Below are positions 1,150 to 15,966 of a stretch of DNA of 64,000 nucleotides, piece by piece; position 1 is the first letter of the stretch, and the number at the start of each line of letters is the position of its first letter. The notes below the pieces were generated by a model, which worked only from the letters and a program-made list of their open reading frames with translations, searched no databases and was not told the DNA's origin. The position numbers and the translations under genes were made by a program. Source of the stretch: Acidisarcina polymorpha (GTDB lineage: Bacteria > Acidobacteriota > Terriglobia > Terriglobales > Acidobacteriaceae); assembly GCF_003330725.1 (NCBI RefSeq), contig NZ_CP030840.1, forward strand, positions 2,046,001 to 2,110,000, given 5' to 3'.

Positions 1150-1151
1150 GC

Positions 1152-1988
1152 ATGATTTCCACCAAACCGGCTGCCGCGGCAAGAGTGCTTGGCGTCGCTG
1201 TCGAAGCCCTCAACATGAATCTCGCCTTAGAGCGTATCGCGGGCGAACTCCACGAACGTCGCAAAGGATATATCTGTCTCACCGGCGTTCACGGCATTAT
1301 GGAGGCCCAACGCGATCCGCGTCTTGCCGAAATTTATGCCTCGGCCGCAATGACTGTCCCGGATGGCGCGCCAACCGTATGGGTAGGTCGTTGGCAAGGC
1401 CATAGCTCGATGCAGCGAGTCGCAGGACCTGAACTCATGCTCGAGTTGATGCGCCGCAAGGAATTCGCGGGCTACACCCACTTTCTGTATGGCGGCGAAG
1501 AAGGCGTAGCGCAGCGGCTGCGCCAGCAACTGACACTCCGCTTCCCATGGGTCCGCATCGCCGGTACCTTTACGCCCCCGTTCCGGGATCTGAACGAAGT
1601 CGAGGAGGACGCGCTCCTCGCTGCGGTCGACGAGCTAAGACCCGATATCATCTGGGTAGGCATTAGCACCCCGAAACAAGAGCGCTTTATGCATCGCTAC
1701 TTGCATCGATTGAATACGACTCTTATGTTCGGTGTGGGTGCAGCCTTCGATTACCATACCGGTCGAATACAGGACGCTCCACAGTGGATCAAGGTTATTG
1801 GTATGCAGTGGCTACATCGGCTGGTTCAGGACCCACGACGCCTGTGGAAGCGATACCTGCGTAATAACTCGTCTTTTCTCTGGAACATTGCCCTGCAGCT
1901 TACCGGCTTGCGAGATTACCCGCCTATCCACAACGAGGTCGAAAGCTGGCGTGCGATCCAGCCTTCTGAAGTATCGAAGGCAGGATGA
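1152..1988 (+). CDS. WecG/TagA/CpsF family glycosyltransferase (GT26)
   Basis: Predicted to add a sugar (N-acetylmannosamine or its uronic acid in characterised relatives) to a lipid-linked intermediate in surface polysaccharide synthesis. 278 residues. Family hallmarks are visible: a TVPDGAP block near residue 75, the STPKQE signature near 175 and the GVGAAFDYHTG block near 198, followed by the basic RLVQDPRRLWKRY segment. I chose the ATG at 1152 because AGGAAA sits about 9 bases upstream; an in-frame start at 1098 would overlap the preceding gene by 52 bases. Forms an operon with the GT4 gene. The actual sugar is unknown. Confidence 0.9.
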   Translation: MISTKPAAAARVLGVAVEALNMNLALERIAGELHERRKGYICLTGVHGIMEAQRDPRLAEIYASAAMTVPDGAPTVWVGRWQGHSSMQRVAGPELMLELMRRKEFAGYTHFLYGGEEGVAQRLRQQLTLRFPWVRIAGTFTPPFRDLNEVEEDALLAAVDELRPDIIWVGISTPKQERFMHRYLHRLNTTLMFGVGAAFDYHTGRIQDAPQWIKVIGMQWLHRLVQDPRRLWKRYLRNNSSFLWNIALQLTGLRDYPPIHNEVESWRAIQPSEVSKAG

Positions 1989-2018
1989 AACTCCTCTTTT
2001 AAGCCGCAAGCACAGGCA

Positions 2019-2315
2019 TCAATCCGTAGGCCTATCGGCCTTGTTCTTCGCCTGCAGGGTTTCCAATAGATGTCGAGTGTAGAGTCCGGTGGCAATAAAA
2101 CTTGCTTGCTGCTGAACCATTTCGTAGAGCACTTCCTCGCCAATCCGGTCGATCGAGGTAACATCGGTGAGGTCGACAACACGCAGCCGCCGACATCCCT
2201 GACTCGGTGAGTTTCGCCACCTCTCACTCAACTCCGCGGCAAACTCTCCAACTAGCTGGCCCTGAAGGACCCATCTCTCTCCCGATGGGTTCTGAACGAC
2301 TGTAATTCTCAACAT
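2019..2315 (-). CDS. STAS-domain protein (anti-sigma-factor antagonist-like)
   Basis: A small single-domain protein of 98 residues that resembles the STAS fold of anti-anti-sigma factors and related signalling partners. It begins with a beta strand (MLRITVV), continues through an ELSERW helix and has a VVDLTDVTSID strand-turn, where STAS proteins carry their phosphorylatable or partner-contacting Ser/Thr. Here the D-V-T-S-I-D segment supplies Thr and Ser. The ATG at 2315 is preferred because AAGAAG stands 4 bases upstream; an in-frame start at 2384 would add 23 Cys-rich residues with no family support. It converges on the glycosyltransferase gene with a 30-base gap. No kinase or phosphatase partner is nearby, so its pathway is unknown. 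Confidence 0.65.
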   Translation of the reverse strand: MLRITVVQNPSGERWVLQGQLVGEFAAELSERWRNSPSQGCRRLRVVDLTDVTSIDRIGEEVLYEMVQQQASFIATGLYTRHLLETLQAKNKADRPTD

Positions 2316-2562
2316 GTCTTCTTTGGCGCCGCACCGGCAAACAACATCGTCGCATTCAATGGAACTGTACCTGACGTTCTGCAATATCCAGAGAACTCGA
2401 TGTCAATGTTTACGCAATCGGGTGACCAAAAACAGGAACTTTAGTGACCACTCTTGATTTGGATAATAGCCGAGGGTTTAGACCAAAGTAGGGGCGCAAA
2501 TCCTCACTAAGCCTTACACCTGCTGCTGAATTATTGGCACGCCGTCAGCATATTGGCACCGC

Positions 2563-4647
2563 TTAACGCTGGTTTGGTCGCGCGATTCCAAGCTTTCGCA
2601 TACGAAATTGCAGGGTTGGCCGCTTAATGCCCAGGCGAGCGGCGGCGCCGTTGGGTCCTGAGAAGACCCAGTTGCTTTGCTCAAGAACGTGAAGAATATG
2701 GCGCCTCTCGATCTCTTCTAGCGTCGTCACTCCGTTGCTCTCAGTAGGACGGGACTTTAGATCGGCAACTGGCACTTTCAACTCCCTGCCGGTAGAAAGA
2801 ATTACCGCCCTCTCGATAACATTTTGCAGCTCACGAATATTACCCGGCCACGGGTAGCGAACAATGCAATTCATGGTGTCAGCTGAAATGGTGTCAATCT
2901 GCTTCTTCATAAGCCGGGCGAAGTGCTGAGCAAAATGCCGCACAAGAAAAGGGATATCTTCGGTTCTTTCGCGCAACGAAGGGACGTAAATCGGGAAAAC
3001 ATTCAACCGATAGAACAGATCGGTACGAAATCGTTGTGCCTCGACCATTGCATAAAGGTCCCGGTTCGTTGCCGCAATCAGTCGTGCGGCCGTATGAAGG
3101 GTTCGTGAACTGCCCAGTCGCTCGAATTCTCGCTCCTGTAAGACCCTTAAGAGCTTCGGCTGCAGTTCCAAGGGTATTTCTCCAACTTCGTCGAGAAAAA
3201 TTGTTCCTTGCGACGCCAATTCAAATCGGCCGATGCGCTGAGAGATCGCGCCCGTAAACGCTCCTTTCTCATGCCCGAAGAGTTCGCTCTCTAACAATCC
3301 GGTAGGGATCGCCGCACAGTTGAGCTTTACGAAGGCATGGGAGCTGCGCTGGCTGAACTTATGAACAGCGCGGGCAATCAGTTCCTTTCCACTGCCCGTC
3401 TCCCCATAGATAAGGACGGTTGAATTGGTCGGCGCCACCGCTTCCACTTGGCGCAGCACCTTTCGTAGAGCTGCACTGTTGCCAACAATCTCTTCAAAGT
3501 TCAGCTCGCTCCGTATCTCGTCCTCTAGATAGAGCTTTTCTTGCGCAAGCTGATCCGAAAGCTCTGAAATCCTGCGATAGGCGAGAGCATTGTCGATCGC
3601 AATTGCTAACTGGCCGGCAATCTGGAGCAGGAAATCGACATCTTCACGCGTAAACGAGTTCCTCTTTAATCTCGCCACGGCAAGAACTCCCAAGGAACGG
3701 CCACCCCGAACCAGCGGTAGGAGGCTGAGCGCCTTAAACCCTTCTTGAATGGCAACCGTCCCGCCAAAATATGGCGATTGTTCTTCGCTTATCTCGCCAA
3801 CCCACGGTTTACCGTTCTCGAAAACTCTGGCAGCCACTGCCTCTGGCGACAGCACTGCTCCGGCGCGTATATGTCCCTTGCCGTCCGGGAAGTCCAGCGC
3901 ATAAACCTCCAGACCTTCTTTGCTGGGGGTAGGAAGCATGAGAGCCACGGCGTCCAGTTGCATGACGCTTCGGATGTTTGGCGATATTGCTTGAATGAGT
4001 TCTTTGAGATTCAGGTTCGAAACAACGCTATTGTTAAGGTCCAAAATGAGCTTGAGCTTGGTTCGCTCGTTCTCCAGCTGCAAACGCGCTCTCTCAGACG
4101 CATCGAAGTTCAGTCTGGCATGAATCGCCAGCGCCGCGTGATCAGCCGCCAGCGAAAGCAGACTAAGATCTTCCTCGGAAAATGCCTTTTCAAACGAACG
4201 TGCAGCGCAGATGATCCCCAATCGCCGAAGGGAGGTTTGCAGCGGGAGAATACAAAGGGAACGGTAACCATGGGTCTGGAACCAATCGAAAGCATCGCCA
4301 AACCTGCGTTCCCTGGCCAATGACTGGATAACGAGTGGCCTTTGACTCTCGTGTACCCAGCAATAGGAAGGACTGCCGACGAAGTGACCCGGAATTCCGT
4401 TCATCGTTGCACCGGAATCTGGAGAAACCTCCTTAGACGAAGCCAGTTCCCTCTCGTACACCACCATGAAAGTGTCAGCCGTAGAAAGACTATGCAGCTT
4501 TGAGGGCAGCGCCTGCAGCAGCGTCTCCACATCGCGGTATTGGTTTAGCTGTTGGGTGAAGTGGAGGAAGCTCGTTCCGTGGTCCACCGGAAAGGCGCCC
4601 TGGGATGAAATTAGTACCTGCTTGTCGCTCTGGCTGTCCATCTCCAT
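2563..4647 (-). CDS. Sigma-54-dependent enhancer-binding regulator with GAF sensors
   Basis: Activates RNA polymerase-sigma-54 promoters by ATP-driven remodelling. Domain order over about 694 residues: one or two GAF-like sensory domains (about 30-185 and 205-365), a short linker helix, the AAA+ domain with Walker A GETGSGK near 414 and the sigma-54-contacting GAFTGA loop near 468, then a Fis-type helix-turn-helix near 665-690 (AAARLGIKRPTLQFRMRKLG). The layout resembles FhlA-like activators. Three in-frame ATGs lie close together (4653, 4647, 4641); 4647 is chosen because an AGGA stands 6 bases before it, while it abuts 4653 directly. Transcribed divergently from the radical SAM/activase gene run, which makes that run a plausible target. 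The sensed ligand is unknown. Confidence 0.93.
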   Translation of the reverse strand: MEMDSQSDKQVLISSQGAFPVDHGTSFLHFTQQLNQYRDVETLLQALPSKLHSLSTADTFMVVYERELASSKEVSPDSGATMNGIPGHFVGSPSYCWVHESQRPLVIQSLARERRFGDAFDWFQTHGYRSLCILPLQTSLRRLGIICAARSFEKAFSEEDLSLLSLAADHAALAIHARLNFDASERARLQLENERTKLKLILDLNNSVVSNLNLKELIQAISPNIRSVMQLDAVALMLPTPSKEGLEVYALDFPDGKGHIRAGAVLSPEAVAARVFENGKPWVGEISEEQSPYFGGTVAIQEGFKALSLLPLVRGGRSLGVLAVARLKRNSFTREDVDFLLQIAGQLAIAIDNALAYRRISELSDQLAQEKLYLEDEIRSELNFEEIVGNSAALRKVLRQVEAVAPTNSTVLIYGETGSGKELIARAVHKFSQRSSHAFVKLNCAAIPTGLLESELFGHEKGAFTGAISQRIGRFELASQGTIFLDEVGEIPLELQPKLLRVLQEREFERLGSSRTLHTAARLIAATNRDLYAMVEAQRFRTDLFYRLNVFPIYVPSLRERTEDIPFLVRHFAQHFARLMKKQIDTISADTMNCIVRYPWPGNIRELQNVIERAVILSTGRELKVPVADLKSRPTESNGVTTLEEIERRHILHVLEQSNWVFSGPNGAAARLGIKRPTLQFRMRKLGIARPNQR

Positions 4648-4998
4648 GTCCATTCCTATATGTAGTAGGTCTGTCTGGAAGCGATTTTGTTACTTCATAG
4701 ATGTCGATGGGGTGCCCTCGGTGGCAACCCACTTTGCAGATAGGCCGCCTGGTCCCTAAGCATCGACGAATGCGATGCCAATCTGCTGGCACTATGTTAG
4801 TCCGTTGGCATTCTTCTTGGTGTTGCAAGATCCTAACTCCCTGTTCAGAGGAGAGTCATCCTTTTCGGTTTCAATAGCTTAGCCAATAGTTCTTTGAACT
4901 ATAAATCTGGCGAATCACATGCAGTTACCCTCAACGTCATCTCAGAGAAGCTCCAATAGATTCCTGTGAAGCGACGTTCGATCTTCTTGGAGGGCTGA
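4648..4998. promoter_or_regulatory. Divergent intergenic region with a dyad and a near sigma-54 promoter match
   Basis: This gap separates the sigma-54 activator from the radical SAM gene. It holds a TGCCA-N6-TGGCA dyad at 4776-4791 and a longer arm pair ATGCCAA (4775-4781) / TTGGCAT (4805-4811). The stretch TTGGCATTCTTCTTGG at 4805-4820 resembles the -24/-12 consensus (TGGCAC-N5-TTGC), but its -12 element reads GG in place of the conserved GC, so the promoter call is weak. No tRNA or convincing small gene was found. Confidence 0.35.
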
Positions 4999-6285
4999 AT
5001 GCCTGTTGAGCAACCGGCTGAGCACACTTCGAATTTTCGCCTGGATGTGCCGTTGCATAATCTTCTGACCCAGCCTTTAGGCCCGCCGACCGGGCTGCGT
5101 CCGGATGGCAAGCCGCAAACTTTTCCTAACCCCATCTTCCCGCAACATCCCGAACTCTTGGGACCAGTCGAGGACAACGTCGATTGGAATCCTCCTGAAA
5201 AGCGCAAATGGACGCCGGGTCAGATATACCACGGTATGCGCGGGTGGCTCTTCCCCTACATTCGCTCACGAGTTACGGCCGGCGATTTTCATCCACTCAT
5301 CGCATATCTCTTCACCGAGTTCAAGTGCAATCTGGATTGCCACTACTGCTGGGCCTTCGACAACAAAGTGAAGGGCATGAGCGAAGATACGGCGAAACGG
5401 TCAATCGACTGGCTTCATGGAACCGGCTGCCGGGTACTTGCCTATATGGGCGGCGAACCACTGCTGCGCCCTGACTTCATTCATAAGATCACTTACTATG
5501 CAGCGAAGAAAGATTTCTGGATTTACCTTCCCACGAACGCCCGCCTCCTGAGAACCGATGTGATCGACAAGCTCGCAGATGCTGGCGTGTCCACCTTTAA
5601 CATCGCCGTCGATGCAGTCGACCTCAAACCAGGCCTCCCGAAGGCATTGGCTCCCATTCGCAAACAATTCGATTACTTGATTCGCAAGCAGTACGGTTAC
5701 GGCTACTCTGTCTTCCTCAATATCAACATATGCCGTAACAACCTGGACGACGTGCGGCAGCTCACTGAAATCGCTCATGACTGTGGCGTCGCCACTGACT
5801 ATCACATCAACGAATCACCCTTGCTGGAACAGGACGAGCATTTCAAACATGCCGCCAATAACGTAACTTACATCACCAAAGAGGATTGGCCAGCTGTCGA
5901 GGAGACCATCCAATGGCTCACCGAAAAACAGGATTCGGGCTATAAGATGGTGAACTCTAATACCAGGCTGTGGCAGATGGTCGACTTTATGAAAGGAAAC
6001 CATTTCCCGTGGAACTGCCGCGCAGGACAAAATTCAATGATCATCCGCGCTGACGGGACCTTGGCGCCATGCTTCCCCATGTACACGGCAACCTATGACT
6101 GGGGCGTGGTTGGCGATCATAAGTTCGACACGAAGCAGCTCGACCATCAAAAAGAGACCTGCCAGACGCACTGCTTTTCGACGTTGAACCACATCCTCGG
6201 TTGGTGCTACAACGACCAACGAGTTATCAAGTACTTCTTCAAGCAGTTGGCACATGGATTCCAAGGCGTGAAAGGGCAGATGTAG
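4999..6285 (+). CDS. Radical SAM enzyme with SPASM-like C-terminus
   Basis: A 428-residue S-adenosylmethionine radical enzyme. The [4Fe-4S]/SAM motif is CNLDCHYC near residues 110-117 and the glycine-rich SAM-contacting MGGEP follows near 151. The C-terminal part has further cysteines (NCRAG near 339, APCFPMY near 357, then C-x3-C and a WC pair near 387-403), the pattern of a SPASM/Twitch auxiliary-cluster domain. The first 100 residues are Pro-rich and not recognised. GGAG stands a few bases before the ATG. It opens a four-gene run with two dehydratase/activase-like genes and a permease, all on the same strand. The substrate is unknown; a modifying or maturation role for its neighbours is only inference. 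Confidence 0.88.
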   Translation: MPVEQPAEHTSNFRLDVPLHNLLTQPLGPPTGLRPDGKPQTFPNPIFPQHPELLGPVEDNVDWNPPEKRKWTPGQIYHGMRGWLFPYIRSRVTAGDFHPLIAYLFTEFKCNLDCHYCWAFDNKVKGMSEDTAKRSIDWLHGTGCRVLAYMGGEPLLRPDFIHKITYYAAKKDFWIYLPTNARLLRTDVIDKLADAGVSTFNIAVDAVDLKPGLPKALAPIRKQFDYLIRKQYGYGYSVFLNINICRNNLDDVRQLTEIAHDCGVATDYHINESPLLEQDEHFKHAANNVTYITKEDWPAVEETIQWLTEKQDSGYKMVNSNTRLWQMVDFMKGNHFPWNCRAGQNSMIIRADGTLAPCFPMYTATYDWGVVGDHKFDTKQLDHQKETCQTHCFSTLNHILGWCYNDQRVIKYFFKQLAHGFQGVKGQM

Positions 6286-6368
6286 CCTTCCCGCAGAATG
6301 TATCTGCTGGTCTCACGACATCAAAGCCGGTACTACCGCAGCGACCCACTTGATCACAGGAGAGCAAT

Positions 6369-8153
6369 ATGCCAGTAGAAGAGATCGTGCTAACGGACTT
6401 CGAAGTAGAGATCCAGGCGCGCATCGATGCAGAACGCGCCCGGCTTCGCGCTGAGGCGGGATTGGCGCGTATGCGTGAGTTCAAGAAGCCTGTAGAGCGG
6501 AGTTTTACAGGCCCGGAACGCGACTACGTCACCATTCTCTTTGGCGGCCTCACCTGGAAGCACGAAGAGATGATCAAGGCGGTCTTTCATGGCAGCGGTT
6601 ATCGCTGCGAAAATATCCCGACCCCGGTTGTTGCTGACTTCCAGGCCGGGAAAGAGTTCGGGAACAATGGCCAATGCAATCCCACTTACTTCACCGTTGG
6701 CAATCTGGTGCGCTATCTTCAAAGTCTCGAAGAGCAAGGGCAAACCAAGCAGCAGATCATCGACAACTACGTCTTCTTCACTGCTGGGTCTTGTGGCCCG
6801 TGCCGCTTTGGCATGTATGAGGCAGAATACCGGTTCGCCTTACAAAATGCGGGCTTTGAAGGCTTTCGAGTTCTACTCTTCCAACAGACGGATGGCATCA
6901 AGGCCGCTAGCGGGGAGCCTGGGCTTAAGTTCTCAGTTGATTTCGGGATGGGGATGCTGAATGCGCTTAACCTGGGCGATGTTATCAATGAGCTCGTCTA
7001 TCAGATCCGGCCTTTTGAAGTGACTAAGGGAGAGACAGACCGTGTAATTCGCGAATCGGTCAAAACCCTTACCGATACTCTGCGCGACCGGAGGCGCTGG
7101 CACATCCTGGAGGCTGCGCCGGGGTGGGCTAAGCCATTCCTTGAAGGACACGCAAAATTTACGGGGATCAGTTGCACGCTCGGTAAAGTAGCTCAAAATG
7201 TCTACGGCAAAGAATACGTGGATGCCCTCCATGCCTGTCGCGATAGCATCAACTCAATCCAGGTAGATCGTTTGCGGGTCAAGCCGGTAATCAAGATAAC
7301 TGGAGAATTCTGGGCGCAGACAACAGAAGGCGATGGCAACTTCAACATGTTTGCTTTCCTCGAGCGCGAGGGAGCGCAGGTTCTGGTTGAGCCCATTGCG
7401 ACCTGGATTGCCTACATGATGTACGTAGCCAAGGAAGGGGCAAAGGCCCGCGCCTACGCAGAAGCTCCCTACCGCGACCCGAAGTGGTATGAAGTCAAGA
7501 AACACCTTGCCAATGAATTGAAGTTGTTGAAGAAGACCGGTGGTCTTAGTGCTGGAAGTGCGATGTGGGGTTATTTCTATCACCGCACAATTAAACATTT
7601 GGGAGACACCGCGCACCATCTCATCCCCCAGAAGGAGTTGTCGCGGCTGGCACATCCCTTTTATCACCAGCTCGCCAGGGGCGGCGAGGGCTACATGGAA
7701 GTCGGTAAGAATGTGTATTACACGGTGAACCATCTGTGTCACATGGTGCTAGCCTTGAAGCCTTTTGGCTGCATGCCTTCAACTCAGTCCGATGGCGTAC
7801 AATCGCGGGTCGTCAACAAGTTTAAAGATATGATCTTCCTTCCCATTGAGACCTCTGGTGAGGGCGAGGTGAATGCCCACAGCCGCGTTCAGATGGCGTT
7901 AGCTGAGGCGAAAGCCAAAGCGCGGGCGGAGTTCGATGGTGTACTGGTGCAAACCGGAAAGTCATTGGAAGATCTCCGCGAGTATGTCGACGCACACCCG
8001 AAACTCAAGCATGCACTTTATAAGGTTCCGCATCGCGAAGGCGTTGCCGGAACTGCGGCACAGTTTGCCTGGCACGTCAGCGACTTGATGGATCGCGACA
8101 GAAAGTATCGTCGCCCGGCGCGCGTTTCTTTGCCGGCATCTCAGGTTGCCTGA
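6369..8153 (+). CDS. 2-hydroxyacyl-CoA dehydratase/CoA-activase-related iron-sulfur protein
   Basis: A 594-residue protein of the HgdB-like superfamily usually annotated as CoA activase or activator-of-dehydratase-related, and often found beside BadF/HgdC-type ATPases. Conserved cysteines that could hold iron-sulfur clusters are visible in GQCNPTYF near residue 103 and in GSCGPCRFG near 141-145, with further single cysteines (GISCTLG near 268, GCMPST near 467). The N-terminal 50 residues are a charged helix. AGGAGA precedes the ATG at 6369. It lies 83 bases after the radical SAM gene and 197 bases before the giant activase. In characterised relatives the partner ATPase passes one low-potential electron to a cluster on such a protein; the substrate here is unknown. 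Double-cubane-cluster proteins are a second possible relationship. Confidence 0.78.
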   Translation: MPVEEIVLTDFEVEIQARIDAERARLRAEAGLARMREFKKPVERSFTGPERDYVTILFGGLTWKHEEMIKAVFHGSGYRCENIPTPVVADFQAGKEFGNNGQCNPTYFTVGNLVRYLQSLEEQGQTKQQIIDNYVFFTAGSCGPCRFGMYEAEYRFALQNAGFEGFRVLLFQQTDGIKAASGEPGLKFSVDFGMGMLNALNLGDVINELVYQIRPFEVTKGETDRVIRESVKTLTDTLRDRRRWHILEAAPGWAKPFLEGHAKFTGISCTLGKVAQNVYGKEYVDALHACRDSINSIQVDRLRVKPVIKITGEFWAQTTEGDGNFNMFAFLEREGAQVLVEPIATWIAYMMYVAKEGAKARAYAEAPYRDPKWYEVKKHLANELKLLKKTGGLSAGSAMWGYFYHRTIKHLGDTAHHLIPQKELSRLAHPFYHQLARGGEGYMEVGKNVYYTVNHLCHMVLALKPFGCMPSTQSDGVQSRVVNKFKDMIFLPIETSGEGEVNAHSRVQMALAEAKAKARAEFDGVLVQTGKSLEDLREYVDAHPKLKHALYKVPHREGVAGTAAQFAWHVSDLMDRDRKYRRPARVSLPASQVA

Positions 8154-8207
8154 AACTGGCGGCGTCCGCGGCGGTCGGCGCGCGATCCGGTTGTCGTTAC
8201 AACCATT

Positions 8208-8243
8208 TCTTTGCGCCACGACCTATCGACCGCGGCGCAAAGA
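8208..8243 (+). repeat. Perfect 10-bp inverted repeat between the dehydratase-like and activase genes
   Basis: TCTTTGCGCC (8208-8217) and GGCGCAAAGA (8234-8243) are exact reverse complements with a 16-base loop. No T-run follows on the plus strand, so it is not a classic intrinsic terminator. It could set relative expression of the two genes by mRNA processing or partial attenuation, or bind a dimeric regulator. Confidence 0.55.
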
Positions 8244-8350
8244 CTGGTGTTTCACTAGATCGTTCAGGGTAATGCAACAGAAACGTACGCGAGCTACTAT
8301 GGTCGGCCGCTCTCCCTGGTGAGGCGGCTGGTTGTAGTGCGGAGACGGGC

Positions 8351-11300
8351 ATGCAGAGTTTTTTTGTCGGTTTAGATGTCGGCTCAACTACAGTGAAGGC
8401 CATCGTCGTCGACGCAGCGACTGACAGGACGATCTGGCAGGATTATCAGCGCCACGAAACCAGGCAGCCGGAGAAGGTCCTGGAATTCCTCCGCCGTATG
8501 GAAGATGAATCACGGATTGCCCCGACCAACACGCGCATCTTTATTACCGGTTCAGGCGGTGGTGTCATCGCTGAAATGATCGGTGCAAAGTTCGTCCAGG
8601 AGGTGCACGCGGTCTCTCTCGCCGTGGAGAAACTGCATCCCGAAGTCTATTCCGTAATCGAACTAGGCGGTCAGGACGCCAAGATCATCGTCTTTAAGGA
8701 TGACGAAGAGACGGGACGGAAAAAGAAGATTCCGTCGATGAATGACAAATGCGCGGGCGGCACGGGAGCCGTCATCGACAAGATCAACGCGAAACTGAAG
8801 ATTCCGGCGTCTGAATTGTCGAACCAGGCTTATCACGGCATCAAGCTTCACAAGGTGGCTGGCAAATGCGGTGTCTTCGCTGAGACCGACATTAATGGCT
8901 TGCAGAAAACAGGCACACCACCAGACGAATTGATGGCCTCGCTTTTTGAGGCAATTGTCCTGCAGAACTTAAGTGTCCTTACTCGCGGGCACACCTTGCG
9001 GCCGCATGTGCTGCTGTTGGGCGGCCCGAACGGCTTTATTCGGGGCATGCGCGAAGCCTGGCAGGCAAACATTCCACGCATGTGGAAAGAGCGTAAGGTC
9101 GAGACGCCTGAGGGCATCGCTCCCGAAGAGTTGATTAAAGTGCCCGACAATGCGCAGTATTTTGCAGCACTTGGTGCGGTCGAGTTTGGTAAGGATGAGG
9201 AGCCTACGGTCGGCCGCTATCTCGGCACGGAGAGGCTCGTCTATTACATCGACTACGGCAGAGCGGAAGAGAAAGCGGATTCTGGCGGTAGGGGTTTAGC
9301 TGCTGAAGACGCTGAGTTGGTGTCATTCCAATCCTCCTATAAAAAGAACAAATTCATTCCGGCGCCATTCCTCCCTGGCCAGGTTGTCTTGGGCTTCATC
9401 GGAGTGGATGGCGGATCCACGTCAACCAAGGCCGTGCTGCTCGGAAAAGATGGCGAGATTCTCTGCAAGACCTATCAACTCTCCAATGGCAATCCAATTC
9501 AAGACACCATCGAGGTTTTCGAGAAACTAAGGAACCAGGTGGAAGACAAGGGAGCATCGCTCGAGGTGCTCGGGGTTGGCACCACGGGCTATGCCAAAGA
9601 CATTCTCAGAGATGTGCTCAATGCCGACGTCGCGTTGGTTGAAACCGTAGCGCATACCGAGTCGGCGCTCAAGTTCTACGACGATCCGCACGTGATTGTC
9701 GACGTTGGCGGCCAGGACATCAAGTTAATAGTCCTCAAAGATGGACGAGTCAAAGACTTCAAATTGAACACTCAGTGTTCAGCGGGCAATGGGTATTTCT
9801 TGCAGTCCACCGCTGAGGGTTTCGGCCTGAAAGTTGAAGACTTCGCTGACGTCGCTTTCTCAGCCAAATCAATGCCCTCCTTTGGCTACGGCTGCGCCGT
9901 TTTCATGCAGTCCGACATCGTTAACTTCCAACGCCAGGGCTGGCGATCGGAAGAGATCCTCGCGGGACTCGCCGATGTGCTGCCGAAAAATGTGTTCCTC
10001 TACGTGGCGAGCATTCCGAATCTGGCTGCGCTGGGCTCCCGATTTGTTTTGCAAGGGGGCACCCAAAACAATATGGCTGTGGTGAAAGCAGAAGTCGATT
10101 TCATCAAGTCGAGCTTCCGCGCCAACGGGAAAGAACCAGAGATCATCGTCCATGAGCACTGTGGTGAATCCGGCGCGATCGGTGCGGCGCAGGAGGCTTT
10201 ACGTCTTTGGGGCAATGGAAAGCAGACAACCTTCATCGGCCTTGAGGCGGTCGCAAATATCAGCTATCGCACCACTCGCAACGAAGATACACGCTGCTAT
10301 TTCTGCAAGAACAATTGCCTGCGTACCTTTATCGATGTCGACGTGAATGGCGGGCAAGCCGTTGCGGCCGGCAGCGGCGACCGCGCAGCCAGTGCTGAAG
10401 AGGTTCAGCAAGCTGCTAACTTGTTGCCGAGTCTCGAAGAAGTGCAGGCTAATTTGCCGCCGGTTGAGAAGCACGGATCTTCATGCAGCACGGGAGGAGG
10501 ATGCGGCACCAGCTCATCTTCTCCTTTCAAGGCCAAGGCGGAGCCTCTCATCCAGATTCAAATTTCTCCGGGATCCAGCAAAGTAGTGGAACTCCCCAAG
10601 CCAGTCGCATTTCAGCCGCGAAAGACTAAAGTCCCTCTACGCTTGGGTGAACAGCGCCTGATCATTGCAACCTGTGAAAAAGGCACCGTCGAAGATCTCG
10701 ACGAAATGAAAGACATCAAGTCGGATATAGACAAGATCAAGGATGCCAATCCCAACTTCGTTGATATTGCAGCCCACGATGTCTTTCGCCCCCGTCAAGT
10801 GGAGATCGTCGCCGATCCCCCGCCCATCACCAAAGGATTCTTCGTCCCCAAAAGCGCCAAAGAGCGTGCTGCGCTCATGGCCCGCAGGCAGGACTTTCGC
10901 GTCGGTATTCCGAGGCTACTGAACACCTATACCTATGCGCCGCTCTTCAATGCCTACTTTGCCAGTCTGGGGTTGAAGTCCGAGAATATTGTCTACTCCG
11001 ATTACACAACTCCCGAGCTCTATCGCGCGGGCGCCAGTCGTGGAGCCATCGATCCCTGCTATCCCTCGAAGATCGGGATCGCCCATGTTTATAATCTGCT
11101 CTCCACCAAGCACGCCAAGAAGCCGCTCCACGCCATCTGGTTCCCGATGTACGACGTCTTGCATTCGCATCTCGTCAATCTCACCGGCTCAAACGCCTGC
11201 CCCACTGTAACCGCCACGCCCGAGACAGTGAAGGCCGCATTCACCAAAGAAAGCGACATCTTCGCGGAGAATGGCGTTCTCTATTTGGATCCGATCCTTA

Positions 11301-12058
11301 ATCTCCAGGACCACAAGATTTGTGCCGACCAGATGTACAAGGTATGGGGACCAGTGCTTGGCCTGAGCCGCGAGGAGAACGAGCGGGCCCTCGAAGTGGG
11401 CTTCAACGCTCTACAGACCTGCGAGTCGGAAATACGCCGCCAGGCGCGAGAGACTCTGGATCAGCTTGAACGCGAGGACCGCATTGGAATTGTGATGCTG
11501 GGTCGGGTATATCACCACGACCCGGGTTTGAATCACGAAATCATGGAGGAGTTCCAGAAACTGGGGTACCCGGTGTTTTCGCAGAGTACACTCCCGATCG
11601 ACGAGGATATTCTCGACCGTCTCTTCGGCGATGAAGTACGCGCTGGACTGATCACGCATCCACTTGACATCTCCGACGTCTGGAAGAATCGGTATTCCAC
11701 CAGCACCAATCATAAAGTCTGGGCGGCGAAGTTCACGGCTCGCCATCCCAATCTTGTAGCTCTCGAAGTCTCCAGCTTCAAGTGCGGACACGATGCTCCC
11801 ATATACGGCGTGATTGAAGGCATCATTGAACAATCCGGCACACCTTACTTTTCGTTCAAGGATCTCGACGAAAACAAGCCATCCGGCTCGATTCGCATCC
11901 GCGTAGAAACCATTGATTACTTTCTGCGCCGCTACCGGGAAGACATCATCAAGCGGCGTCAGGTTGAAGGAGACATCGAAGCCCAACTTGCGGCCTTCGA
12001 GCAAGGACTACGCCGCCAAGCTGAGGAGACCTGCAAACTGGCAGTAGCTGGGGATTGA
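8351..12058 (+). CDS. Giant tandem BadF/HgdC-type activase fused to a DUF2229-like region
   Basis: A 1235-residue fusion. First ASKHA ATPase domain (about 3-285): phosphate loop GLDVGSTTVKA and the cluster-binding cysteines of HgdC-type activators in DKCAGGTGA and GKCGVFAETD. Second ASKHA domain (about 348-625): GVDGGSTSTKA, TQCSAGNGY and GYGCAVFMQ. Then a Cys cluster C-x2-C-x3-C near 648-655 (RCYFCKNNC), a Ser/Gly/Cys-rich linker near 708-720, and a C-terminal DUF2229/HgdB-like part (about 845-1215) with DPCYPSK near 900, NACPTV near 950 and FKCGHDAP near 1137. Homologous activases use ATP to drive an electron onto a dehydratase cluster. Here activator and acceptor-like parts are joined. Start ATG follows GGAGACGGGC. 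The next gene begins 13 bases after the stop. Confidence 0.9.
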   Translation: MQSFFVGLDVGSTTVKAIVVDAATDRTIWQDYQRHETRQPEKVLEFLRRMEDESRIAPTNTRIFITGSGGGVIAEMIGAKFVQEVHAVSLAVEKLHPEVYSVIELGGQDAKIIVFKDDEETGRKKKIPSMNDKCAGGTGAVIDKINAKLKIPASELSNQAYHGIKLHKVAGKCGVFAETDINGLQKTGTPPDELMASLFEAIVLQNLSVLTRGHTLRPHVLLLGGPNGFIRGMREAWQANIPRMWKERKVETPEGIAPEELIKVPDNAQYFAALGAVEFGKDEEPTVGRYLGTERLVYYIDYGRAEEKADSGGRGLAAEDAELVSFQSSYKKNKFIPAPFLPGQVVLGFIGVDGGSTSTKAVLLGKDGEILCKTYQLSNGNPIQDTIEVFEKLRNQVEDKGASLEVLGVGTTGYAKDILRDVLNADVALVETVAHTESALKFYDDPHVIVDVGGQDIKLIVLKDGRVKDFKLNTQCSAGNGYFLQSTAEGFGLKVEDFADVAFSAKSMPSFGYGCAVFMQSDIVNFQRQGWRSEEILAGLADVLPKNVFLYVASIPNLAALGSRFVLQGGTQNNMAVVKAEVDFIKSSFRANGKEPEIIVHEHCGESGAIGAAQEALRLWGNGKQTTFIGLEAVANISYRTTRNEDTRCYFCKNNCLRTFIDVDVNGGQAVAAGSGDRAASAEEVQQAANLLPSLEEVQANLPPVEKHGSSCSTGGGCGTSSSSPFKAKAEPLIQIQISPGSSKVVELPKPVAFQPRKTKVPLRLGEQRLIIATCEKGTVEDLDEMKDIKSDIDKIKDANPNFVDIAAHDVFRPRQVEIVADPPPITKGFFVPKSAKERAALMARRQDFRVGIPRLLNTYTYAPLFNAYFASLGLKSENIVYSDYTTPELYRAGASRGAIDPCYPSKIGIAHVYNLLSTKHAKKPLHAIWFPMYDVLHSHLVNLTGSNACPTVTATPETVKAAFTKESDIFAENGVLYLDPILNLQDHKICADQMYKVWGPVLGLSREENERALEVGFNALQTCESEIRRQARETLDQLEREDRIGIVMLGRVYHHDPGLNHEIMEEFQKLGYPVFSQSTLPIDEDILDRLFGDEVRAGLITHPLDISDVWKNRYSTSTNHKVWAAKFTARHPNLVALEVSSFKCGHDAPIYGVIEGIIEQSGTPYFSFKDLDENKPSGSIRIRVETIDYFLRRYREDIIKRRQVEGDIEAQLAAFEQGLRRQAEETCKLAVAGD

Positions 12059-12071
12059 TGGTCGGACCTGC

Positions 12072-13184
12072 ATGCGATTGCGCCTGAATTCCATCGACAG
12101 ATTTGTTCTGTCTAACGTGAGTTATCGCCCGGTGCGCACGTTTCTTAGCGTGTTCGCCATCGCCGTTGAAGTGACCATGATTCTGACGCTGGTTGGTGTC
12201 AGCTATGGAACTCTCGATTCAACGGCGCGTCGCGCCAGAGGAGTTGGCGCCGATATCATGGTCCGTCCTCCAGGATCTTCGATCATCGGACTTAGTTCGG
12301 CTCCGATGCCGGATCTGCTGATACCCATGTTGCTGAAGCAGCCGCATGTTACGCTGGCCACCGGCACCGTGGTGCAGCCGCTGGCCGGCTTCGATACGGT
12401 CACCGGACTTGATCTGAATTCGTTTACCAAGATGAGCGGAGGGTTTCATTTCCTGGAAGGGGGCCCATTCCAAAAGGATGACGATATCATCGTCGATGAA
12501 TACTATGCCCGTGAAAAACATCTTCATGTCGGGGACACAGTTCCGCTCATCAACCACGTATGGCATCTGAGTGGAATCTTCGAGTCGGGCAAACTCACTC
12601 GCATTGCGGTAAAACTGCCGGTGCTTCAGGAGTTGACCGGAAACCCAAACCATCTCAGCCAGATCTATCTCAAGGTAGATAACCCGAAAAATGCACACAA
12701 AGTAGTTAGTGCCCTGCAGCAGAAAATGCCCGGCTATCCCATCTACACGATGGAGGAATTTACTTCACTGCTTACCGTCAGCAGCGTTGAATTGTTACGG
12801 AATTTTATCGGCGTAGTGATCGGCGTGGCTGTGATCGTCGGCTTCATCGTCGTGTATATGGCAATGTACACCGCCGTTTTGGAACGGACCCGAGAAATCG
12901 GGATCCTCAAAGCCATGGGTGCCTCAGCGGGACTCATCCTTACTCTGCTGCTCAAAGAAACTCTGGTCCTGGCATCCTCCGGTGCACTGGCGGGAATTAT
13001 TCTGACATACGGGACCCAGTGGTGCATGCAGCATCTCGTGCCTTCAAGCCTGACTCAGGAAACTGTCTATGCATGGTGGCCGATTGCCGGCTGCATCGCG
13101 ATTGCCGGCGCACTTCTGGGCGCCATCGTGCCAGCGATGAAGGCCATCAACCAGGACGTCACCCAGGCGCTTGCGTATGAATAG
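12072..13184 (+). CDS. FtsX/LolC-type ABC transporter permease
   Basis: A 370-residue integral membrane protein of the MacB/FtsX family. One N-terminal transmembrane helix (about 18-42), a periplasmic MacB-like domain (about 45-245), then three C-terminal helices (about 250-275, 298-320, 335-358) with the ERTREIGILKAMGAS cytoplasmic segment typical of FtsX domains. Such permeases work with a LolD/MacB-type ATPase to move or extract lipids, lipoproteins or peptides rather than by a pore. No ATPase gene lies next to it in this window, which is unusual. The 13-base gap after the activase gene suggests cotranscription with the radical SAM/dehydratase-like genes. Confidence 0.88.
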   Translation: MRLRLNSIDRFVLSNVSYRPVRTFLSVFAIAVEVTMILTLVGVSYGTLDSTARRARGVGADIMVRPPGSSIIGLSSAPMPDLLIPMLLKQPHVTLATGTVVQPLAGFDTVTGLDLNSFTKMSGGFHFLEGGPFQKDDDIIVDEYYAREKHLHVGDTVPLINHVWHLSGIFESGKLTRIAVKLPVLQELTGNPNHLSQIYLKVDNPKNAHKVVSALQQKMPGYPIYTMEEFTSLLTVSSVELLRNFIGVVIGVAVIVGFIVVYMAMYTAVLERTREIGILKAMGASAGLILTLLLKETLVLASSGALAGIILTYGTQWCMQHLVPSSLTQETVYAWWPIAGCIAIAGALLGAIVPAMKAINQDVTQALAYE

Positions 13185-13218
13185 CGGCCCGGTCAGGATG
13201 AAGTAGCCCATCTCCCAC

Positions 13219-13239
13219 GTCTACTCAAATGAGGTAGAC
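13219..13239. terminator. Hairpin between the permease gene and the tiny convergent gene
   Basis: GTCTACTCA and TGAGGTAGAC can pair with one bulged G and a very tight loop. It lies between the convergent ends of the permease gene (+) and the 34-residue membrane-protein gene (-). There is no T-run on either strand, so termination is only a possibility. Confidence 0.3.
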
Positions 13240-13277
13240 ACGCCTCTCTCCAACTCGAGAGGAAGCATCGCAGGATA

Positions 13278-13382
13278 CTAATGGTTGTCTCTCCACTCTC
13301 GCCTCAGCATCGACCAGAGCACGTCGATCAGACCAGCGACGGGAAGAAGGAGGAACATGAGTAGCAGAATCCAGAACTCCAT
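13278..13382 (-). CDS. Tiny single-span membrane protein, 34 residues
   Basis: A very short open frame with an unusually strong translation signal: GGAGGTGA stands 3 bases before the ATG at 13382 on the minus strand. The product begins MEFWILLLMFLLLPVAG, continues through L-I-D-V-L-W and ends in a basic, polar tail (LRREWRDNH). That is one hydrophobic helix of about 20 residues with positively charged residues after it, as in small regulatory membrane peptides. It sits alone between the activase operon and the alcohol dehydrogenase gene and reads against both. I know no family for it. An overlapping plus-strand frame from 13357 also has AGGAGG before its ATG, but its 36-residue product has no recognisable feature. 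Confidence 0.55.
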   Translation of the reverse strand: MEFWILLLMFLLLPVAGLIDVLWSMLRREWRDNH

Positions 13383-13581
13383 GGGTCACCTCCATAAACA
13401 ACGCTATGCTGCTCAACGGCGGTTCGCAGTGTCCGCGCGCACTGCGGTGTGTGCTCTGGATCACTGAAATAGCTTCCCCATTTCAGGGAAATCCCTCGTC
13501 CGCTGCAAACTGTACTCCATGGATGTAGACTCCCCATGAGTAGGAAGTGAAAGACTCAGTCGGTGGCATGAGCAGAATTGG

Positions 13582-13597
13582 TTCTGATTGATCAGAA
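13582..13597. promoter_or_regulatory. Operator-like palindrome upstream of the alcohol dehydrogenase gene
   Basis: TTCTGAT-TG-ATCAGAA is a perfect 7-bp inverted repeat with a 2-base centre, ending 45 bases before the ATG at 13643. Position and symmetry fit the site of a dimeric transcription factor. No regulator gene is adjacent. Confidence 0.35.
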
Positions 13598-13642
13598 AGT
13601 CAGCTCTTAAGACCTCGTTCTGACGAATAGCCACCGGGAGGA

Positions 13643-14635
13643 ATGTCGTTGAAATCCGCCGTGCTGTCTGGCAACAACCGGGATCGTCCGCTCAGTATCC
13701 AAGAAGCTGCCAAGCCCGCCGCCGAGGCTGGGCAGCTTCTTTTGCGCGTGCGGGCGTGCGGAGTTTGCCGGACCGACCTTCACATCGTCGACGGGGAACT
13801 CGCCCCTTTAAGGTCCAACTTGATCCCAGGTCATCAGATCGTGGGTGAAGTCGTCGAAGGATCGACCTCAGAGCATCCGCCGGGAACAAGGGTGGGCGTC
13901 TCCTGGATCGGCGGGACGGATGGCCAGTGCTGGTATTGCAGGCATCAACAGGAGAACCTCTGCGATTCACCGACCTTCACCGGCTATACCGTTAATGGAG
14001 GGTATGCAGAGTTTGTTGCCGTACGCTCAGATTTCGTCTTCCCGCTTCCCGATTCGCTGGACGATACCTCTGCGGCGCCGCTGCTATGCGCTGGCATCAT
14101 CGGCTTTCGCAGTCTTCGGGTTGCTGGCGTTCAACCAGGAGAGCGCGTCGGCTTGTTCGGCTTCGGGGCCTCGGCACATCTCACCATTGATGTTCTGCGC
14201 GCTTGGCACTGTGAAGTGTATGTATCGACCCGTGGCACGTCACATCGGAAGTTAGCCGAGTCGCTTGGAGCGACCTGGGTTGGTACCGAAAACGAGAGGC
14301 CGCCGGTTGAGCTCGATCGTGCCGTTACCTTCGCTCCAAGCGGAGATGTCGTTGTTTCCGCCCTGTCCAGTCTCCGCAAAGGGGGCATCGTGGCCATCAA
14401 CGCGATTCACCTCGATCGAATGCCCGAGTTCGACTACGACCGTCTACTCTGGGGTGAACGTCAGATACGAAGCGTCGCGAACATGACCCGGCAAGACGCC
14501 CGCGACTTCCTGAACATCGCAGCAGAGATTCGAATGCGACCTAAGGTGACGATTTTCTCGCTCGACCAGGCGAACGAAGCACTTGCCGCCATTCGAAGCG
14601 ACTCGATTGATGGAGCAGTAGTGCTTGTGCCCTGA
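13643..14635 (+). CDS. Zinc-dependent alcohol dehydrogenase (medium-chain family)
   Basis: A 330-residue MDR-family NAD(P)-dependent oxidoreductase that interconverts an alcohol and an aldehyde. Catalytic zinc ligands are in GVCRTDLH near residue 39 and PGHQIVGE near 61. The structural-zinc loop reads DGQCWYCRHQQENLC near 93-107: three of the four cysteines are present, while the first position is occupied by Asp. A Glu at the equivalent place is known in the Sulfolobus enzyme. The Rossmann glycine motif is GLFGFGASA near 170. A strong GGGAGGA almost touches the ATG, so a downstream TTG at 13649 could also serve as start. It is monocistronic; the real substrate is unknown. Confidence 0.88.
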   Translation: MSLKSAVLSGNNRDRPLSIQEAAKPAAEAGQLLLRVRACGVCRTDLHIVDGELAPLRSNLIPGHQIVGEVVEGSTSEHPPGTRVGVSWIGGTDGQCWYCRHQQENLCDSPTFTGYTVNGGYAEFVAVRSDFVFPLPDSLDDTSAAPLLCAGIIGFRSLRVAGVQPGERVGLFGFGASAHLTIDVLRAWHCEVYVSTRGTSHRKLAESLGATWVGTENERPPVELDRAVTFAPSGDVVVSALSSLRKGGIVAINAIHLDRMPEFDYDRLLWGERQIRSVANMTRQDARDFLNIAAEIRMRPKVTIFSLDQANEALAAIRSDSIDGAVVLVP

Positions 14636-14691
14636 CCGGAAAAGCCCCCAGACTAACCGCGAGACCGTTCTGCCACTCACTTTCTGCCTGG

Positions 14692-15357
14692 TCAGCCGCC
14701 CCGCCTCATGCCGCCGCCTTGAGGTCCCAGAGCGTTCAAATCATCCAGAACGGCTTGCCGGTCTTGCGGACGGAACGACCCGGCGTTCATCGTTTGCTCG
14801 ATCTCCGACTTCGCCTGCTTGAGCGATCTGAATTGCTGCAGCTTCCCTTCGCCGCTGGCCTTCAGGGATTGCAACGAGTTCAGGCTTTGCTGCAACTGCT
14901 GCACCTGGGCTTCGGTCGGGTTGCCGCGCATCACCGCGAGGTAGACGTCCTTGCCGAGCTTCTTTCCTGGTGTCTCTGGCTCCGCGGAGGCAGTCGGCTG
15001 CTTGTTGGCGACCACCACCTGGAAGTCCTGCTCTAAAGTCTCGCGGTCCGGCTGCTTCACCGTAGCCATGACTGCTTTAATCTTTGAGACGGCGCCATAG
15101 GGCGTTACCAGATCGAGCGGAGCGCCTGGTTTTTGAGCAGCTTTGCTCTCCTTCAGCGCTGCCAGACTTGCCTGTAGTTCTTTGACTTGAGGAATGGTCA
15201 GGCTACCATTCATGACCGCGGTCTTGATGTCCTGGTGAAACTTCTCGGTAGCCGGGTTGGAATCGGGAGCGTCAACCGCCGCCGCCATAATGAAGCCCGC
15301 CGGTGCCACAAGGAGATACGTCCCAAGAGCAATTAATCTGAAGCTGGTTCTTATCAT
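14692..15357 (-). CDS. Exported protein with a duplicated helical repeat, function unknown
   Basis: A 221-residue protein with a signal peptide (MIRTSFRLIALGTYLLVAPAG, about 1-27). The mature part has two copies of one pattern: a Lys-Asp motif, then AVMNGSLTIPQVKELQASLAALK near 50 and AVMRGNPTEAQVQQLQQSLNSLQ near 145, so it probably arose by internal duplication of a roughly 95-residue helical unit. It ends in a Gly/Arg tail (GGGMRRGG). The ATG at 15357 is chosen because GAGGAAG stands 5 bases upstream; an in-frame start 18 codons earlier would put a charged stretch before the signal peptide. The glycine-zipper gene lies directly upstream on the same strand, with a gap of about 63 bases. I do not recognise a named family. 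Confidence 0.7.
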   Translation of the reverse strand: MIRTSFRLIALGTYLLVAPAGFIMAAAVDAPDSNPATEKFHQDIKTAVMNGSLTIPQVKELQASLAALKESKAAQKPGAPLDLVTPYGAVSKIKAVMATVKQPDRETLEQDFQVVVANKQPTASAEPETPGKKLGKDVYLAVMRGNPTEAQVQQLQQSLNSLQSLKASGEGKLQQFRSLKQAKSEIEQTMNAGSFRPQDRQAVLDDLNALGPQGGGMRRGG

Positions 15358-15420
15358 TTTTCTTCCTCGATAATCCCGGTACACCGTACTCGCAGTCTGT
15401 TTAGATCCCACATCGGGACC

Positions 15421-15966
15421 TTACTTGACCGAATAACCTCGAGCGTCAAGGCAGGCCGACATAGACCGCTTGAAGCCATCCATGGATTGTTCCTCCTGGG
15501 TCTTGCTCGCATTCGTCTGCTTCTCGGACTTTTCCGATTGTTCTTTTTCCTCGCGCTTTCTCCTCGCAGCCCCGATCAACGCCCCGCGCCGCGCGCCGAC
15601 GGCGGGGTCCCCTCCTGCGGCGCCCGCCACCACGGCGCCTCGTGCTGCATCTTTTCCGGTCGAACCATTCCCCTCTTTATTCCCCGAGGATGTCGAGGAG
15701 TGCGAGGCAGCGGGGGCCGTCGCGTTCGGGTCGAAGCCGGTCTGCGTCTTCGCATTGGAATAGCATTGTCCTTCGTCACTGAGCTGCTGGGTCGGGCTCT
15801 GTTGCGCCCGAGGATAGACATAGAGACCTACGGTGCTCGCCATCCCTTTGATGGGCGGAGCAGTATTGCTTTGACCTTTCAAGGCCGGCGTGCAGCTCAA
15901 CAGCAGTGTCATAGCGACAAGACTCGGTTTCCGGCAATTTACGGTAACGGGTTGTAGAGTCAACAT
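15421..15966 (-). CDS. Glycine-zipper envelope protein, possibly a lipoprotein
   Basis: A 181-residue exported protein. A hydrophobic N-terminus ends in LLLSC, a passable lipobox. The mature part has the LSDEGQCYSNAKTQTGFDP block seen in glycine-zipper envelope proteins, then a Ser/Gly linker and a GAVVAGAAGGDPAVGARRGALIGA glycine-zipper pair near 110-135, a strongly charged stretch, and a C-terminal FKRSMSACLDARGYSV block that resembles the end of the same family. The two separated cysteines could form a disulfide. The ATG at 15966 is preferred over a GTG nine bases upstream because AGGTGAG stands 4-5 bases before it. Role unknown; glycine zippers usually pack in membranes. Confidence 0.72.
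   Translation of the reverse strand: MLTLQPVTVNCRKPSLVAMTLLLSCTPALKGQSNTAPPIKGMASTVGLYVYPRAQQSPTQQLSDEGQCYSNAKTQTGFDPNATAPAASHSSTSSGNKEGNGSTGKDAARGAVVAGAAGGDPAVGARRGALIGAARRKREEKEQSEKSEKQTNASKTQEEQSMDGFKRSMSACLDARGYSVK

Follow-up and report, generated by a model that had tools for sequence, protein, structure and literature searches.

The window analyzed here is a stretch of 64,000 nucleotides from Acidisarcina polymorpha (contig NZ_CP030840.1, positions 2,046,001–2,110,000), and this report concerns the genes at its positions 4999–13184. Four open reading frames (ORFs) are located there on the plus strand, at 4999–6285 (428 amino acids [aa]), 6369–8153 (594 aa), 8351–12058 (1235 aa), and 12072–13184 (370 aa). 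They are separated by 83, 197, and 13 bases, in agreement with the initial annotation of the locus. The first ORF encodes a radical S-adenosylmethionine (SAM), SPASM-like protein (Pfam PF04055, 3.4e-17). The second product, R594, is a predicted HgdB-like reductase half, assigned as a PlsR/Red2 equivalent by its fold and its similarity to fused relatives. The third, A1235, has two BadF/HgdC-type activase domains (B domains), a CxxCxxxC linker, and a DUF2229/HgdB-like half, which is the PlsA-type B-B-DUF2229 arrangement. The fourth product is an FtsX/MacB-type permease (Pfam FtsX and MacB_PCD). The genes are regarded as real because R594 orthologues with its conserved cysteines recur across many genomes. 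The genome of the window has one R594, one DUF2229 protein, and one close copy of the radical SAM gene.

Gene neighborhoods were compared in 98 loci (L056–L153), comprising 18 stretches of relatives and 80 loci from a scan of named genomes, the latter being the best 80 of at least 578 confirmed relatives. Leaving out two duplicates gave 96 non-redundant loci. A1235 adjoined R594 in 91 of the 96, and in the remaining five the contig ended at most 850 bases downstream of R594. Among the 49 non-redundant loci having 2.5 kb on both sides, the radical SAM gene (S) was present in 16 and absent in 33, and its order relative to the R594 (R) and A1235 (A) genes varied (R-A-S in seven, S-R-A in five, R-S-A in four). 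When the neighbors in all 98 loci were clustered, the radical SAM gene (24 loci by ORF call) was the sole other widely recurrent one; a cluster of 19 loci consisted at least partly of frames antisense to R594 and A1235, followed in size by a sigma-54-type regulator in five loci. Beyond the pair, the radical SAM gene, and the antisense frames, no gene family was found in more than five of the 98 loci, the smaller clusters being without annotation. The permease, which had been annotated as a member of the system, was found in L056–L153 at L074 only (a 91%-identical relative), some of these stretches stopping short of its position, and it was absent from three loci of the genus g34 at about 89% identity (L176–L178). 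It was ruled out as a system member for lack of conservation. The conserved unit is three genes, not four. Recurrence of the gene order had been set beforehand as a test of the system, and it was observed for R594 and A1235, in part for the radical SAM gene, and not for the permease.

Pfam assigned BcrAD_BadFG (PF01869) to two stretches of A1235, the second at residues 350–614 (9398–10192, plus strand), and DUF2229 (PF09989, 8.5e-45) to residues 850–1079 (10898–11587, plus strand); a tandem BadF activase with a DUF2229-like tail had thus been described correctly. Cys134/173, 476/515, 649/652/656, 775, 903, and 950 were conserved in 79 of 79 aligned rows (window included), and Cys1145 in 77 of the 77 rows with a residue there. 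The tail was modeled with a predicted local distance difference test score (pLDDT) of 86, and structure searches with the model returned 2-hydroxyisocaproyl-CoA dehydratase (HadBC), the double-cubane-cluster protein (DCCP), and BzdNO. With VIA-align, HadBC, BzdNO, Mbd, and DCCP reached Z 9.8–13.7, versus 7.5 for the next row. A search of solved structures by sequence gave no significant match to the tail profile (best E 0.5). In five loci (L175, L184, L185, L186, and L188), A1235 is split into a tandem activase (~730–770 aa) and a DUF2229 protein (~390–520 aa), resulting in a three-protein form.

R594 had no match in Pfam or NCBIfam. Its AlphaFold model (pLDDT 80) gave DCCP structures 6eno and 7yzm as the top Foldseek rows (probability 1.00 and 0.99; E 4e-3 and 1e-2), with nothing at E ≤0.001, and benzoyl-CoA reductases ranked 5 and 7 (probability 0.63–0.69) amid unrelated rows. 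The VIA-align score of R594 with DCCP (Z 8.1) was level with those of unrelated rows aligning far fewer residues, and no significant match was obtained among solved structures by sequence (best E 0.09). The description of R594 as HgdB-like holds for its predicted fold and for the resemblance between R594 and the C-terminal half of fused PlsA/Ger-type proteins (see below), and lacks support from the domain databases. In the alignment of homologues, Cys103, Cys145, and Cys468 were present in 42 of 42 rows and Cys142 in 98%, the exception being L071, which has an adjacent cysteine; all four were invariant in a second alignment (25 rows). Rows with stops in frame (L038, L048, L049, and L050) were removed, as was row L126. 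The check for cluster ligands in aligned homologues that had been called for thus yielded conserved cysteines in both proteins. By analogy, a [4Fe-4S] cluster may sit at each conserved cysteine site of A1235 and R594.

These results bear on two relatives of the same fold. The initial annotation had pointed to double-cubane-cluster chemistry, and the two best Foldseek rows of R594 would suit a small-molecule reductase of the DCCP type. The fold is, however, common to HadBC and BzdNO as well. An [8Fe-9S] double cubane should call for more cysteine ligands in one subunit than the four conserved in the R594 alignment. DCCP is also a homodimer served by a separate one-domain activase, whereas the activase here is tandem and fused to a second half. 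The double-cubane lead thus fits poorly, and we regard a DCCP-type enzyme as improbable. The predicted fold of both halves would likewise suit a 2-hydroxyacyl-CoA dehydratase of amino-acid fermentation; this is the least probable of the explanations considered, and very improbable. A large fused tandem activase differs from the HgdC/HgdAB layout, and no fermentation or CoA-transferase family was among those recurring in more than five of the 98 loci (smaller clusters without annotation), so that the pair lacks a conserved fermentation context, as had been supposed. In short, DCCP and the benzoyl-CoA reductases/2-hydroxyacyl-CoA dehydratases resemble the window's proteins in the fold predicted for both reductase halves and in the activase family, and differ in cysteine number, the fusion of tandem activase and DUF2229, and gene context.

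Closer relatives were found in the PlsA/Ger family (plasmalogen synthase/glycerol ester reductase), whose members combine B domains with reductase halves according to passages of PMC13274423 and PMC8788747. The same passages tie two-B-domain proteins to alkyl ethers and refer to cited work in which Ger activity was obtained by heterologous expression. Parts of this type are described in a section of PMC12838417 as the plasmalogen synthase PlsA/PlsR (CPE1195/1194 of Clostridium perfringens). In several genomes, PlsA/Ger-type proteins, either fused (~1400–1500 aa) or split, matched A1235 and R594 at 20–34% identity. Residues 1–664 of A1235 matched the fused proteins of Collinsella and Haliovirga at 34% (E 7e-94 and 4e-104), its DUF2229 part matched them at E 4e-22 and 5e-30, and R594 resembled the C-terminal region of each at 20–21% (E 2e-18 for Haliovirga and 4e-18 for Collinsella). 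Fusobacterium animalis has a two-gene form (975 + 404 residues), of which the large protein matched A1235 (E 1e-93) and the small one the Collinsella C-terminus. The features of the family are thus found in A1235 (two B domains with cluster cysteines, DUF2229) and, as predicted from sequence and model, in R594 (the HgdB-like second reductase half, PlsR/Red2).

Maximum-likelihood analysis of 41 A-type proteins placed 21 of 21 window-type proteins in one group (100/100), on a stem branch of 2.14. The neighboring group (midpoint-rooted, 100/100) had seven members: Collinsella, Haliovirga, Acetoanaerobium, Fusobacterium, and the fused proteins L201, L203, and L204 of Acidobacteriota genomes. Outside both groups were the other PlsA/Ger-type proteins, including the one of G201 that is linked to Tes and, on a long branch, a Paraclostridium row. 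Judged by sequence, the R594/A1235 pair is a deep, separate, and divergent clade of the PlsA/Ger family. The parts of an ATP-activated, very-low-potential system of the BadF/HgdB kind appear to be present, as had been annotated; rather than an undescribed electron system, they would represent a divergent clade of a family of lipid ester-to-ether reductases. The pair shares with the relatives of PlsA/PlsR compared here (Fusobacterium, Collinsella, and Haliovirga) the two BadF domains, DUF2229, and HgdB-like halves, and with Fusobacterium animalis, of the neighboring tree group, the two-gene form. It differs in the gene order, which is reversed relative to Fusobacterium (R before A in the window), in a much longer R594 with an extra conserved cysteine, and in the radical SAM neighbor at part of the window-type loci. 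The B-B plus reductase architecture of Ger (Thermotoga maritima, Desulfatibacillum alkenivorans) is also shared, by description, and the window's form differs in consisting of two proteins.

We consider it fairly probable that R594 joins A1235 in an ATP-activated enzyme of the PlsA/Ger type that reduces glycerol esters (or acyl esters). In such an enzyme, the BadF-type domains of A1235 would pair as a pseudo-dimer and share a single [4Fe-4S] cluster, held by Cys134/173 together with Cys476/515. ATP hydrolysis would drive single electrons of very low potential into Fe-S clusters of the DUF2229 half and R594, where a membrane glycerolipid would have its ester carbonyl reduced via a radical. An ether, either vinyl or alkyl, would then result from loss of water. 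The radical SAM protein, a frequent partner, would serve as a modifier of the lipid chain or as a maturation factor for the reductase. The substrate had previously been proposed to be membrane-linked or exported; a membrane-linked one is probable, and the argument from the permease falls, as that gene is not conserved.

At L064 (G004, 9047–15609), window-type R594/A1235 genes are arranged back to back with a second and dissimilar PlsA/Ger-type pair, of 1046 and 453 aa. These are possibly two putative ester reductases at one locus, perhaps one per glycerol position. By eye, the second pair has counterparts of Cys103, Cys145, and Cys468 of R594 and none of Cys142.

The distribution of the unit was followed in a sample of 395 Acidobacteriota genomes (separate draws treated as one, the handles agreeing), using self-chosen cut-offs of E ≤1e-40 for R594 (36 genomes) and the radical SAM protein (28 genomes), E ≤1e-60 for Tes (208 genomes), and E ≤1e-5 for DUF2229 (91 genomes); the p values below ignore kinship among genomes. 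R594 was thus found in 36 of 395 genomes of the phylum; at E 0.001, 71 genomes had matches, with other PlsA/Ger-type proteins accounting for the weaker ones. By title, the best 80 of at least 578 relatives comprised 72 from Acidobacteriota and eight others (Latescibacterota, Neomarinimicrobiota [3], Zixiibacteriota, Poribacteria [2], and Dadabacteria). DUF2229 was found in control genomes too, namely Deinobacterium chartae and, at a looser threshold, Thermus composti, both of which are aerobes.

Tes (NF045702) is a radical SAM enzyme of membrane-spanning lipids. The genome of the window has, elsewhere, a Tes-family protein aligned over 2–483 of the 486 profile positions with 324 bits, below the cut-off of 450; by its score it is a homologue, not an equivalog. 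Tes homologues were present in 33 of the 36 R594 genomes (G049, G318, and G379 lacking one) versus 175 of 359 others (p 2.5e-7), and Tes exceeded the cut-off in 13 of 36 versus 20 of 359 (p 5e-7). A Tes homologue stands beside the unit in two loci: at L175 (G367), six same-strand genes encode a Tes homologue, a radical SAM protein, a TetR regulator, R, the tandem activase, and DUF2229, and at L137 the homologue follows R-A by ~1.2 kb on the same strand, with an opposite-strand 214-aa frame between. Passages of PMC10087280 propose PlsAR homologues for the ether bonds of Solibacter usitatus, and passages of PMC8941075 propose Tes homologues for coupling in Acidobacteria, including Edaphobacter aggregans; the proposal of this family as a maker of acidobacterial ethers is thus already in print. 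In the part of the literature searched, the separate clade with R before A and its radical SAM partner were not found.

Two further loci of one genus, L216 (G201, 2949–9087) and L217 (G254, 66–6151), carry directly consecutive same-strand genes for a Tes protein over the cut-off, a DUF2229 protein (1032 and 1046 aa, respectively), and an R-type protein (475 aa). The PlsA/Ger-type pair is unlike that of the window, and these loci likely represent a cassette for tetraether lipids that belongs to another PlsA/Ger lineage.

The radical SAM protein of the window has CxxxCxxC at 110/114/117 and auxiliary cysteines at 245, 340, 358, 388, and 392, none of which varied across an alignment of 15 rows that included the window. 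The earlier label SPASM-like is apt for the five auxiliary cysteines and otherwise loose, the full SPASM motif being absent. As a candidate Tes, the protein was rejected: it scored 32 bits against the NF045702 cut-off of 450, over profile positions 92–208 of 486, the core only. Its best single-sequence match in the PDB was Tes 7tol (E 6e-6); with the 15-row profile, 7tol came second behind 5wgg and near viperin-like chains, all over the core. R594 was found in 14 of the 28 radical SAM genomes (p 3e-9), and DUF2229 of any kind in 20 of 28 versus 71 of 367 others (p 2e-8), seven of the 28 having neither. The tie to Tes homologues was weaker (22 of 28 versus 186 of 367, p 0.005). The radical SAM gene thus tracks DUF2229 more than Tes, which points to the ester reductase, not Tes, as the partner. 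Six g67 genomes (G131, G155, G171, G187, G195, and G256) have the radical SAM gene and, on another contig, a fused PlsA/Ger-type protein; R594 (E 1e-40) and Tes homologues (E 1e-60) were absent from these six. G096 and G240, also of g67, have the fused protein and no radical SAM gene.

Several observations weigh against the proposed lipid ester reductase. Membership in the PlsA/Ger family was judged against named, unassayed relatives instead of the Ger (Thermotoga, Desulfatibacillum) and PlsA (C. perfringens) proteins with proven activity, and R594 is 20–24% identical to the named relatives, with no BLAST match to the 404-aa Fusobacterium partner at E 1e-6. A passage of PMC13274423 states that Ger and PlsA cannot presently be separated by sequence alone. 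The cluster of R594 may differ, because the other acidobacterial PlsA/Ger-type pair at L064 is without Cys142. In the genus g34, 11 genomes out of 62 gave a match, that of G332 in broken form, so that the trait is accessory. Among the genomes shown of the window's family, a Tes homologue occurs with or without R594, and the association of R594 with Tes is therefore partly a family effect. In a check of 15 hand-picked genomes of named carriers (all eight from outside Acidobacteriota and seven of the 72 acidobacterial ones), a Tes homologue was found in two of the eight and seven of the seven, respectively; the pair may thus act on ordinary diacyl lipids too. The two Tes-linked loci are little above chance, because ~0.3 Tes genes were expected and one was found in L056–L153 (98 loci with 973 kb of flanking sequence, at a rough ~1.4 Tes copies per 4.5 Mb), and L175 comes from a set gathered for the radical SAM gene.

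Some of these and earlier observations would suit a related explanation, in which the family and the electron-transfer machinery are the same and the substrate is another one, for example a cofactor, an intermediate bound to a lipid, or a different ester, amide, or thioester lipid. The radical SAM protein would then make or finish that compound. Such a role would account for the depth and separateness of the clade (stem 2.14), for the ~190 residues by which R594 exceeds the 404-aa Fusobacterium partner and its extra conserved cysteine, for the radical SAM neighbor in 16 of 49 loci, and for the sharing of one genome by PlsA/Ger-type paralogues, e.g., in G004 (L064). On the other side, Collinsella and Fusobacterium are genera that make plasmalogens, and closeness to their group in the tree points to lipids, as does the co-occurrence with Tes within the family-effect and non-acidobacterial limits given above. 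We consider another substrate unlikely, although much less so than the DCCP and dehydratase functions, and retain the glycerol-ester reductase as the preferred reading.

In G332 (contig C7, 12504–15354), the radical SAM gene and R594 are both broken; the operon seems to be decaying there, and the other g34 carriers are mostly intact.

A GAF-GAF sigma-54-dependent regulator (Pfam) is encoded divergently upstream of the radical SAM gene (2563–4653, minus strand). This placement is kept in L074 and in G361, G253, and G326 (L176–L178), and a 47%-identical regulator sits tail-to-tail with the A gene in G008 (L071). The protein is likely the regulator of the operon. In the divergent intergenic region, an inverted repeat, TGCCA-n6-TGGCA (4776–4791), was recognized in the alignment of the window and four relatives; both half-sites are invariant in these rows, G253 and G326 being near-identical here, and the repeat is possibly an operator. 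No convincing sigma-54 -24/-12 promoter was found upstream of the operon: one-mismatch matches numbered three in the window versus 2.2 expected, and none in the intergenic region. Scans for sigma-70 promoters and terminators gave fewer sites than in shuffles. A second radical SAM protein (343 aa), distantly similar to the first, is encoded at 59191–60219 (minus strand) of the window, near an acyltransferase and a PDZ-domain gene.

Acidobacteria produce branched glycerol dialkyl glycerol tetraether (brGDGT) lipids, which serve as proxies for past temperature and pH. According to a passage of PMC11868695, the acidobacterial pathway is unclear, with elb or agps in only some subdivision 4 genomes. 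We tentatively propose, as a possibility we hold with some doubt, that soil Acidobacteria have in this unit a module dedicated to ether lipids, in which a separate clade of split reductase, working with its own radical SAM chain modifier or maturase, would finish brGDGT ether bonds where a Tes homologue is present; its patchiness would then explain the occurrence of ether and ester-only Acidobacteriaceae. A partnership of this kind, between a radical SAM enzyme and a lipid ester reductase, would also be a new link in enzymology. The practical interest is that the acidobacterial ether step would become testable: the reductase is patchy in g34 (11 of 62), and a Tes homologue is present in every g34 genome listed (rows with no match being listed in part), which would offer a direct genetic handle on ether-lipid makers.

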